DNA of 32,228 nucleotides from Candidatus Firestoneibacteriota bacterium. GTDB lineage: Bacteria; Oederibacteriota; D2-FULL-39-29. The translations under genes were made by a program, and so were the position numbers. A model generated the notes under the pieces. The model was not told the origin of the DNA and ran no database searches. It worked only from the letters and a program-made list of their open reading frames with translations. Shown here one piece after another: positions 28,337 to 32,228 of this stretch. Each line of letters begins with the position of its first letter. Position 1 is the first letter of the stretch. The DNA lies in contig CAITEH010000002.1 of assembly GCA_903891415.1 (NCBI GenBank), positions 1 through 32,228 of the forward strand, written 5' to 3'.

Positions 28337-29302
28337 TCAATTATTATACTGGAAAGTTTCTTCAGCAAGAACTTTTCCGTCTGCCGCTCCGGCAACGCTT
28401 ATTGTAATAATATTTTTGCCTTTCTCTGCATCCTTTATCACGCCGGCAAGATCCAGGCTTTGTTCGCTTTTTGCTCCGGCAGTTAGCTTCAGTTCTTTGG
28501 CCGTTTCTTTTTTAGAACTTTCGTTAATATTAGTTATTTTCACAGTCAATTTCTCTTCTTTGCCCCCTGTGTTCCTTATCACGGCATTATTTAAAAATAT
28601 TTTTCTGCCGGAAAAAGATGCCTGCCCGAATTTCTCCGGCGCGTGAAAGCCCCCGAAGGTGCAGATCCAGCAGTCATTTTCCGGAACAGTTTTCCTTTCC
28701 CTGTTCAGGTTGAGGCCAATAACGTCCCCCGCTTTAGGGGTAATTCCGAGAGTTGACCAGGGAATAGCGATCTCAATAGTCCAGGCCTCCGCTGTCCTGC
28801 CGGTCTTAACTTCCCATTTGGCAACAAAATCTTCATCGGTCACGGCGTCCCCGAAGGAATCTTTTATTTTTCTGGAACTACCTTTGGAGCCCACGCAGTT
28901 TGCCATAAAGTGATAATAAGTAAGATGGTCATGCCTGGTATCAATGAATATTTCCACGCTGTCATCCATCCAGACAGAATCGCCCTCCGCCTCTTTACTG
29001 GCTGCGACAAGCTTGTCCAGTTTATCCTCTTTGCATTCAAAAGCTATGTATAGCTTGTTCTCATCCCTGCAGACATATGCTGTGGTCTGCTTTGAGGGCA
29101 GTCCGGTCCCGGTATATAAAGAAAAGTTATCCGCCTTATCGCTTATTTTCCAGCATTCATCGTTCAATATGCCGTCAAGCGCAGGAGCCTTACTCTGGAC
29201 GATCTCCAGGTTTCCGCCTGTCCTTATAAGGGTAACTTCCGCAAAAACATTCAAATTGCAGAATACAACCAGCAGCACTGCAACTATTTTTATCAGTTTC
29301 AT
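28337..29302 (-). CDS. secreted CBM9-like carbohydrate-binding protein
   Basis: 321 residues. Signal peptide with cleavage near NVFA/EV (residue ~22). Residues ~35-230 are a family 9 carbohydrate-binding module (PF06452-like): A-L-D-G-I-L-N-D-E-C-W-K at the start, L-Y-I-A-F-E-C-K-E, then D-D-S-V-E-I-F-I-D-T-R, and E-I-A-I-P-W-S-T-L-G near the end. All are hallmark segments of this beta-sandwich. The last ~85 residues form a small beta-rich domain. No catalytic domain is attached, so it is a stand-alone sugar-binding protein in the periplasm or on the surface. AAGGAGG is close to the ATG. Its position directly after the ABC importer genes suggests capture of the same glycan. Confidence 0.82.
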   Translation of the reverse strand: MKLIKIVAVLLVVFCNLNVFAEVTLIRTGGNLEIVQSKAPALDGILNDECWKISDKADNFSLYTGTGLPSKQTTAYVCRDENKLYIAFECKEDKLDKLVAASKEAEGDSVWMDDSVEIFIDTRHDHLTYYHFMANCVGSKGSSRKIKDSFGDAVTDEDFVAKWEVKTGRTAEAWTIEIAIPWSTLGITPKAGDVIGLNLNRERKTVPENDCWICTFGGFHAPEKFGQASFSGRKIFLNNAVIRNTGGKEEKLTVKITNINESSKKETAKELKLTAGAKSEQSLDLAGVIKDAEKGKNIITISVAGAADGKVLAEETFQYNN

Positions 29303-29387: not shown

Positions 29388-29793
29388 TTAATTTGTCTGT
29401 CCGGCTTTGAATTTTGATTCGCGAAGTATCTTCAACTGCTGGACCGTGAAACCTATCAGGATCGCTCCCATCATCCAGGCCACCGAGGTAGCATAGCCAA
29501 ATTTCAGATACACATACGCGTTATAAAATATCTCAAGCCCGATAACATGCGTGGCATTCAGAGGCCCGCCGCCTGTTGTTGCGAGGATCCTTTCCGTTGC
29601 CTGAAAGCTTCCGACAAAATTCCCGACCAGCATTATTACCAGAATGGGCCTCAGCACCGGAATGGTTACGTGCCTTATTTTCTGGAATATATTGGCGCCG
29701 TCCAGGTCCGCTGCCTCATACAATTCCTCCGGGATCATTTTCAGAGCCGCGAGATAAAAGATACTCCCCGCGCCGACCGCCGCCCAGACACCA
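29388..29793. repeat. direct repeat, proximal unit of a 2435-base spaced tandem duplication
   Basis: These 406 bases align without gaps to 31823-32228. Most differences are at third codon positions. The offset between the two stop codons is 2435 bases, about the length of one gene plus spacer. Confidence 0.8.
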
Positions 29794-31790
29794 ATAACAA
29801 TAACACAGATCATGGCCATTTTGGGATCCTGAAGCCAGAGCTGGGGCGGGATATGAAAAAGCCCTATTACCCGGTTGAATAAGCCGTCCGGAGAGGTGTC
29901 ATAGAATCTCTTCCAGAGCAGTAGCACCACCAGCGCGCTGGTCACAGCAGGCAGATAAAAACATACCCGGTAAATAACGGTTCCCCTTGGTATTTCATTC
30001 AAGAACAGGGCCAGTATTATCGGCGAGATATACCCCAAAAGCAGGGACAGGGCGGCGTAGACAAAGGTGTTCTTAAGGGCTATCCAAAAAGTATCATTGT
30101 ACAGCACGGTCACAAAATTATCTATGCCTATCCATTTGCTCACCCCTATTATCCTGTAATCCTGAAAGGCCATCATCAGTCCCGAAACTATGGGCAAATA
30201 ACTCCAGACCAGCATGGTAAGCAGTGCGGGCGCCATCAGCACCCAGCCCAGAAACGCCCTGCTCCGGTCTCCGGGTTTCATAGTTATGGCGGTATGCGCC
30301 GCCTCTTTTTTTAAAGTAGACATGGTGCCTTTAATATATCTGACAAAAAAGAAACCAAGAAGGACAGCAAGGAACGCCAGGACCAGAGCCACGACCTTTC
30401 TCCGGTGTTTCATGATATCTTCAGGAATATTTCCGATAAGAACTTCATTTGTTTTGGCAACAGCCGCGTCCAGTTCTTTCCGGTAATCCACTTCATCAAA
30501 CAGGATCACCTTGTCCAGCGGCGGGGCCATGAATTTATAAATATTCTGGCAATTTCTGCCGTAAGGTTCGGGATGAGCGCAGGCAAGCATCTCCTTATAC
30601 ATGGAGACCCATTCTTTGGGAACTTCATTGATATATTCTTCAAAACCGTATTTTTTCAGATATTCCGGATTTACATATTTTGTATAGCCCGCCTGGACCA
30701 GGCGGGTAACCTGGATCTTCTTCGCCTCATCGCCGACCATGTACTGTATATATTGCCAGGCTGCGTCCCGGACTCTTTTATCTTTGGCTGTAGCGCTTAT
30801 TAAATACGGACTGGCATTAAGCTCGCATCCTCCGAGCCCGGACGGGCCTTTAGGCAAGGGAGCTATGCCGACAATATTGGGATCTATATCCGTGGGAACA
30901 ATAGTCATGTCCCCGGGCCGGGTCATGCTGAAGACCATGGCTATTTTGCCGTCATCAAACTCGTCCCATAAAGTCCACAGAAATACTTTTGCAACCCCCT
31001 TGTATTCTTTGCCATTTTTTACGAACCTGCCTCTTAAAAGCTTGTGCGCAAACCTTAAGGCCTCAACAGCTTCCTTGCTGTTAAATACGGCTTTCCAATT
31101 ACCGTTTTCATCCTGCTTAACAATATCCCCGCCGGCCTGCCATAAAAAATTGGTCCAGTGCCAGGCGAAACTGCCTCCCTGTCCGTAAAAACCGAAACCA
31201 CTGACCCCTTTTTCTTTATCTGTAAGTTTTACGGCGTACTCATAGAACTCCTCCCAGGTTTTTGGCGGCCGGTCAGGATCCAGGCCGGCCTTTCTGAACA
31301 GGTCTTTTCTGTAAACCAGGGCATTAACACTGACGCTTGAAGGCATGCCCCAGGTATGCCCCTTTTGTTTTACTACCTGCCAGACCGTGGGAATGTACAT
31401 GCTTTCCACATCCGTGGTCTTTTTCCATGCGTCTAAATATTCATCAAGGGGATAGACAAAGCCCTGTTCTATAAAAGTGGTGACATTGCGGAAGGGGATC
31501 TGAATAACATCGGGGGCGGTCCCTCCGGCAATGGCCATTATAACAGAATCCATTCTTCCTGAATTCTCAAGCCTTACGCCCTGAAGTTCCCTTACCCTGA
31601 TGCCAGGATGTGTTTTAAGAAATTGCTCAAAGACTTCCCTGCCGATCCTTTCGGTCAGGGATCTTGCGTCTTTTCTCGGGATATTCTGTAAAACCAGTTC
31701 AACAGGAGTTTCTTTTTCCGCGTACAAAAAAGATACAAACCCGGTAAAAGCCAAAACTAGAATACAAAATATTATTGCATTTTTTTTCAT
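29388..31790 (-). CDS. ABC sugar transporter: solute-binding protein fused to MalF-type permease
   Basis: 800 residues from the ATG at 31790; a TTG at 31808 is in frame but lacks a Shine-Dalgarno, and the signal-like sequence begins at this ATG. Residues 1-24 are a signal segment, and ~25-450 form a family 1 extracellular sugar-binding protein (F-L-K-T-H-P-G-I-R-V, A-G-G-T-A-P-D-V-I, K-T-W-E-E-F). A membrane helix at ~465-485 (VVALVLAFLAVLLGFFFV) leads to a basic cytoplasmic linker, then ~515-795 is a CUT1-type permease with six helices and the EAA loop E-E-L-Y-E-A-A-D-L-D-G-A (~687-698), where the ATPase docks. The topology is consistent: binding domain outside, linker inside. Such proteins are normally separate. 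The gene follows an almost identical paralogue and precedes the CBM9-like gene. The ATPase and second permease are not in the window. Confidence 0.88.
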   Translation of the reverse strand: MKKNAIIFCILVLAFTGFVSFLYAEKETPVELVLQNIPRKDARSLTERIGREVFEQFLKTHPGIRVRELQGVRLENSGRMDSVIMAIAGGTAPDVIQIPFRNVTTFIEQGFVYPLDEYLDAWKKTTDVESMYIPTVWQVVKQKGHTWGMPSSVSVNALVYRKDLFRKAGLDPDRPPKTWEEFYEYAVKLTDKEKGVSGFGFYGQGGSFAWHWTNFLWQAGGDIVKQDENGNWKAVFNSKEAVEALRFAHKLLRGRFVKNGKEYKGVAKVFLWTLWDEFDDGKIAMVFSMTRPGDMTIVPTDIDPNIVGIAPLPKGPSGLGGCELNASPYLISATAKDKRVRDAAWQYIQYMVGDEAKKIQVTRLVQAGYTKYVNPEYLKKYGFEEYINEVPKEWVSMYKEMLACAHPEPYGRNCQNIYKFMAPPLDKVILFDEVDYRKELDAAVAKTNEVLIGNIPEDIMKHRRKVVALVLAFLAVLLGFFFVRYIKGTMSTLKKEAAHTAITMKPGDRSRAFLGWVLMAPALLTMLVWSYLPIVSGLMMAFQDYRIIGVSKWIGIDNFVTVLYNDTFWIALKNTFVYAALSLLLGYISPIILALFLNEIPRGTVIYRVCFYLPAVTSALVVLLLWKRFYDTSPDGLFNRVIGLFHIPPQLWLQDPKMAMICVIVIGVWAAVGAGSIFYLAALKMIPEELYEAADLDGANIFQKIRHVTIPVLRPILVIMLVGNFVGSFQATERILATTGGGPLNATHVIGLEIFYNAYVYLKFGYATSVAWMMGAILIGFTVQQLKILRESKFKAGQTN

Positions 31791-31822
31791 CTGGCATCCG
31801 GCAAACAATATTATCTAATACC

Positions 31823-32228
31823 TTAGTTTGTCTGCCCCGCTTTGAATTTTGATTCGCGAAGGATCTTCAACTGCTGGACCGTAAACCCTATCAGGATCGC
31901 TCCCATCATCCAGGCAACTGAGGTAGCATAGCCAAATTTCAAATACACATACGCGTTATAGAATATTTCCAGGCCCATAACATGCGTGGCATTTAAAGGG
32001 CCTCCGCCGGTCATCGCTAAAATTCTTTCCGTGGACTGGAAGCTTCCGACAAAATTTCCGACCAGCATTATTATCAGGATGGGCTTAAGCACCGGAATGG
32101 TCACGTGCCTTATTTTCTGGAATATATTGGCGCCGTCCAGGTCCGCGGCTTCGTACAATTCCTCGGGGATCATTTTCAGGGCCGCGAGATAAAATATGCT
32201 TCCCGCACCGACCGCCGCCCAGACTCCC
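31823..32228 (-). CDS. ABC sugar permease C-terminus, tandem paralogue of the 29388-31790 protein (partial)
   Basis: The frame is open to the right edge, giving the last 134 residues, starting at G-V-W-A-A-V-G-A-G. It includes the EAA loop and the final helices. Against the same part of the downstream copy it differs at only 5 residues (Arg/Lys, Val/Ile, Ala/Ser, Thr/Met, Ile/Met). The two genes end with the same K-A-G-Q-T-N. Whether this copy also carries the binding-protein domain cannot be seen, but the high identity makes it likely. It stops 32 bases before the next start, so the two are co-transcribed. Confidence 0.85.
   Translation of the reverse strand, partial: GVWAAVGAGSIFYLAALKMIPEELYEAADLDGANIFQKIRHVTIPVLKPILIIMLVGNFVGSFQSTERILAMTGGGPLNATHVMGLEIFYNAYVYLKFGYATSVAWMMGAILIGFTVQQLKILRESKFKAGQTN
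31823..32228. repeat. direct repeat, distal unit of the tandem duplication (cut by the edge)
   Basis: Partner of 29388-29793. It probably continues beyond the window, since identity is still high at the last base. Confidence 0.8.

Follow-up and report, generated by a model that had tools for sequence, protein, structure and literature searches.

How is a sugar importer built when its binding protein and one of its permeases appear to be encoded by a single gene, and which protein does such a subunit pair with? The question is raised by the right end of a 32,228-nucleotide stretch of DNA (the window), which is contig C2 of a 2.5-Mb genome assembled in 86 contigs (completeness 86.7%), apparently of Candidatus Firestoneibacteriota. 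A preliminary description had read there, in one frame, a signal segment, a binding protein, an extra membrane helix, a basic linker and a CUT1 permease with an EAA loop, and Pfam and hydropathy bear this reading out.

The receptor-permease fusion and its copies

The fusion gene (MalEF, copy A) occupies positions 29388-31790 of the minus strand as an uninterrupted frame of 800 aa, with the ATG at 31790, an alternative TTG start at 31808 and the stop at 29388. The signal segment (aa 1-24, 31719..31790, minus strand as for all features of copy A) is followed by a MalE-like sugar-binding domain (aa 25-455, 30426..31718; PF01547, E 3.8e-39; PDB relatives 1eu8 and 6dtq), in which the Pfam match to SBP_bac_1 covers aa 51-358 (E 4e-39). 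An extra membrane helix at aa 465-483 (30342..30398), found by hydropathy and conserved in position among relatives, tethers the receptor, and a basic linker (aa 484-511, 30258..30341) with the sequence RYIKGTMSTLKKEAAHTAITMKPGDRSR is predicted by the positive-inside rule to be cytoplasmic. The remainder is a CUT1 MalF-type permease half (aa 512-800, 29388..30257), matched in the same protein by BPD_transp_1 at aa 605-779 (E 1e-5), with AlgM1 as its best PDB relative and an EAA loop at about 29658-29717 that reads YEAADLDGANIFQKIRHVTIP. Hydropathy gives the same order, with the signal segment at 5-23, the helix at 465-483, the basic segment and then the MalF helices. The NCBIfam models UgpA/MalF match the C-terminal half and UgpB/MalE the N-terminal half, all of them far under their equivalog cut-offs. 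A database search for the two-domain architecture recovered the same single-frame fusion in Armatimonadota and in the window's phylum, and a frameshift or read error joining two genes is rejected by the many independent single-frame copies. The earlier claim that tethering gives each such permease its own receptor is supported, the protein being a genuine CUT1 receptor-permease fusion.

The near-identical second copy that had been placed 32 bases upstream is there as described. The C-terminal 134 aa of this copy B form an open frame at 31823..32227 (minus strand) that is broken off by the contig end, its stop lies 32 bp ahead of the copy A ATG, and it is about 96% identical to the corresponding part of copy A. 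The locus had been proposed to be followed past the right edge of the window; the contig ends there, within an assembly repeat, and what the genome's other contigs yielded were parts of fusion copies on C58, C11 and C6, a MalG-type permease on C58 and one MalK-type ATPase. C11 ends and C58 begins with an N-terminal piece of the fusion, and C6 begins with a C-terminal one. Because these fragments and C2 have 94-141 identical bp in common where they meet, the genome holds three fusion copies and not two, of which copy A is complete and two are broken between contigs.

The arrangement of the copies was read against KR_bin-0439, a close Candidatus Firestonebacteria relative (81% identical, locus L032). 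Its gene order is surface protein, 394-aa protein, MalG-type permease (MalG*), MalEF, HEAT protein, DUF4159 and CBM9, followed by TIM barrel, esterase, TIM barrel, heparinase II/III, creatininase and esterase. Since C58 matches the left and the window the right of this order, the order in the window's genome is likely MalG*, MalEF (C58 with copy B), MalEF (copy A) and CBM9. The N-terminal part of copy B is accordingly probably C58:1-2115 (L014), which adjoins MalG*, this C58-C2 join following from synteny with KR_bin-0439 where the assembly is not contiguous. C11 and C6 would together make up the third copy, unlinked to the others.

Between the copies of the genome, the receptor halves share 77-86% protein identity with about 48% identity at fourfold sites, and the permease halves 68-78% identity at fourfold sites, the identical assembly overlap being excluded from the fourfold-site comparison. 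For C11 and C58 the fourfold identity rises from 48% in the receptor half to 78% in that of the permease (p 4e-5), and no such difference was seen in comparisons with KR_bin-0439. This difference is a signature of gene conversion in the permease halves, which have been homogenised while the receptor halves diverged. The C58 receptor is 91% identical to the KR_bin-0439 orthologue (over aa 230-455) but 79% identical to copy A, so the duplication probably predates the species split. The tandem and orphan copies could also be duplicates in decay or products of the assembly, with only the MalG*-adjacent copy at work, as suggested by the position of all the extra copies at contig ends in the assembly repeat and by the lack of an own MalG* for copy A in the window. 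This is nevertheless an unlikely account: copy A is intact across 800 codons, the flanking genes differ from copy to copy, and copies A and C11 both appear to be under purifying selection because their receptor halves are 84-86% identical in amino acids against about 47% at fourfold sites.

The partner permease MalG* and its repeats

The neighbour of the fusion, on C58 as in KR_bin-0439, is a permease of the MalG type, 629-649 aa long and matched by the UgpE/MalG models, whose first two helices (predicted by hydropathy at 18-36 and 423-441) are separated by an insert of about 360 aa. The EAA motif was read directly in the sequences of both the fusion and MalG*. An ordinary CUT1 system of the same genome (C81) has a separate binding protein, a MalF of 292 aa and a MalG of 270 aa without insert. 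Structures predicted for the fusion (five sequences) and for MalG* (single sequence) had a mean pLDDT near 36. The large protein encoded upstream of MalG* is conserved in both genomes (L014:8896-11883 on C58, 995-1034 aa; L032:2-1015), and its C58 copy had no Pfam match.

The insert consists of 4-5 tandem repeats of about 70 aa each. A repeat profile built on seeds from five proteins matched repeatedly in two proteins kept out of its seed (L074 and L082), and scores for 750 shuffled inserts did not rise above about 5 bits among the rows listed. The second half of the repeat, with the motif FxxKYxxIxxLNxxYxTxYxSFxxxxxP, is similar to a single helical motif found in GH42-type beta-galactosidases, both in Pfam (E 1e-7 to 3e-4) and in PDB (7vkw, E 3e-7; also 1kwg, agarase and beta-amylase). 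The match to PF02449 is limited to positions 137-194 of 376, a complete TIM barrel with catalytic glutamates was not found in the MalG* insert by this Pfam match, and MalG* is not a glycosidase. Within the phylum, full-length repeat matches are in frames of MalG* size; matches to the motif half only are single and fall in different frames, most of them 570-1470 aa long, which may be glycosidases. The MalG* of genome G003 (contig C35; L081:9441-11322) is split over two frames by a frameshift or sequencing error.

The likeness to GH42 beta-galactosidases and relatives (7vkw, 1kwg) spans about 34-66 residues, a single helical motif, and MalG* differs from them in carrying 4-5 tandem copies of it and no catalytic barrel. 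Such a short match fits the view that the repeats merely stiffen or space the periplasmic face with no link to transport, the GH42 likeness being helix-turn convergence, and so does the P1 insert of about 500 aa without assigned function in Thermotogales MalG (PMC2246101). This view is possible, though doubtful, given that the motif is specific, that searches with several distinct repeats lead to the same element of the glycosidases and that repeats and fusion are co-inherited.

MalG inserts of another size occur in other families of the same phylum (L085, L088-L091 and L101), where MalG is about 410-420 aa long and has some 170 aa between helices 1 and 2. In both of those scanned, L089 and L091, this insert is weakly like a biotin/lipoyl barrel-sandwich domain, and it represents another type of P1 insert in MalG, unrelated to the first.

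Co-inheritance of the two genes and the importer they would form

A homologue of some kind was found in 45/45 genomes of the window's phylum, and three of its families have full-length fusions with at least 42% identity. Of the 121 Armatimonadota genomes sampled, at least 33 have one frame in which both halves are matched, at 39-47% identity. Receptor and permease share a single frame in every member of the main fusion clade. The MalG beside a main-clade fusion carries the repeats in all 28 loci with a visible MalG (15 in the window's phylum, C58 and KR_bin-0439 included, and 13 in Armatimonadota), a few of them with only one to three weakly detected repeats, and no repeats were found in the 16 MalGs of non-fused systems (Fisher p 2e-12, a test that ignores relatedness). 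The main fusions form one group in the tree (39 rows, support 100/99), as do the MalGs with repeats when only columns outside the insert are used (28 rows, support 100/100), and therefore the association represents one shared history and not many independent events. The subclades of the two trees match, and by these phylogenies the fusion and MalG* constitute a co-inherited two-gene module. Two further receptor-MalF fusions (L094:5315-7738 and L117:2598-5108) are placed outside the main clade and their MalGs are without these repeats; the fusion therefore arose more than once.

The proposal that two fusions, each bringing its own receptor, pair as MalF/MalF in place of MalF/MalG and do without MalG found no support here. 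Near-identical tandem copies in the window speak for it, as do solitary fusion genes at some Armatimonadota loci, several of these genomes having MalG* elsewhere or not located. Against it stand the co-inherited MalG-type neighbour in 28/28 loci and the mirrored trees, the single fusion and single MalG* of KR_bin-0439, and the presence of MalG* elsewhere in two solitary-fusion genomes (G046 and G047), which together leave such pairing very improbable.

The favoured explanation, to which a probability of roughly 70% is given, is a CUT1-type oligosaccharide importer of the composition MalEF:MalG*:MalK2. In this importer the fusion would serve as the combined MalE and MalF subunit, its receptor anchored to the membrane by the extra helix, and would pair with MalG*. 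The energy for transport would come from a shared ATPase of the MalK type, present in two copies. The periplasmic repeat domain of MalG* would face the receptor and most likely cradles it or steers the sugar chain, in a way comparable to the large periplasmic MalF loop of E. coli, which is missing from this MalF half. The three fusion paralogues would probably all work with a single MalG* and a single MalK, acting as alternative receptor modules. The only MalK-type ATPase of the genome (OB_MalK, 368 aa) is on C85, unlinked to the module and next to a ROK-type sugar kinase identified by eye, and it probably energises the module. The sharing of an ATPase among importers is known elsewhere, for example for MsmK (PMC4519317). 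With the genome 86.7% complete, a second MalG* or MalK could have been missed.

Directly downstream of copy A lies a CBM9-like protein (28337..29302, minus strand; PF06452), conserved in synteny in KR_bin-0439, which is context and not a part of the permease. It belongs to a long one-directional gene run for polysaccharide degradation and sugar metabolism (window positions 3-29302) that includes a heparinase II/III-type lyase, esterases and TIM-barrel isomerases, and xylose-isomerase-like enzymes are also encoded in the surrounding locus. The substrate of the importer is probably an oligosaccharide freed by this locus.

Comparison with known importers

The E. coli maltose importer MalE-MalF-MalG-MalK2 (CUT1) has the same binding-protein family and MalF/MalG-type permeases with EAA loops, and its MalK-type ATPase with C-terminal OB domain probably has a counterpart here in the one encoded on C85, but its MalE is a separate protein and its large periplasmic domain is in MalF (180 aa, helices 3-4), whereas here it is in MalG* (helices 1-2). 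The nearest solved relatives of both permease halves are AlgM1 and AlgM2 of Sphingomonas sp. A1 (PDB 4tqu), likewise an oligosaccharide importer; at 301 and 305 aa these are of ordinary permease size, so that they lack both a fused receptor and a P1 insert of this kind. In GlnPQ and OpuA importers, which are homodimers of other permease and receptor families, the receptor is fused to the permease. The covalent tether is thus shared with them, but a distinct MalG-type partner is present here, and the fusion falls outside these amino-acid/osmolyte families, its best models and PDB relatives being CUT1 sugar permeases and receptors. Of the CUT1 features, an SBP_bac_1 receptor and two different permeases, MalF- and MalG-type, were found, and the usual separate receptor was not; a separate receptor is usual in CUT1 systems and not strictly defining. 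Thermotogales MalG1/MalG2 have a hydrophilic insert of about 500 aa between MalG helices 1 and 2, in operons that encode a separate MalE (PMC2246101), and they are likened to MalG* by the position of the insert, not by its sequence.

No description of a CUT1 receptor-permease fusion or of a GH42-like repeat insert in MalG was found in the open-access literature, most subscription papers lying outside that scope. The architecture does not therefore appear there as a standard described family, yet it is common in Armatimonadota and not unique to the window. The CUT1 fusion and the GH42-like MalG repeats look new as a variant of the CUT1 importer, tethered receptors and a large MalG insert being already known separately, and together they look like one undescribed transporter design. 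A tentative extension, rated well below the favoured explanation, would make them a distinct class of ABC sugar importer of Firestoneibacteriota and Armatimonadota, in which a tethered MalEF works with a MalG* whose glycosidase-motif repeats handle polysaccharide chains, receptor-permease paralogues are exchanged on one MalG*/MalK core, and gene conversion of the permease keeps them compatible. CUT1 importers are the textbook free-receptor systems, and a widespread tethered clade makes the effect of tethering on sugar capture testable; co-inheritance with the repeat domain of the partner does the same for the reason behind MalG loop expansion. Annotators gain a way to spot sugar transporters in uncultured phyla that look incomplete where binding protein and permease are one gene.

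Candidate fusions from a tblastn look outside these phyla were rejected, the genes being separate in Pantoea and the annotated records of the plasmid matches listing two separate products. Among the loci collected, two MalFs (L098:5345-7153 and L099:7430-9331) have an N-terminal extension of 310-340 aa, which in L098 had no Pfam match. A single frame of 1380 aa (L095:4203-8345) matches both MalF and MalG permeases and is possibly a MalF-MalG fusion.
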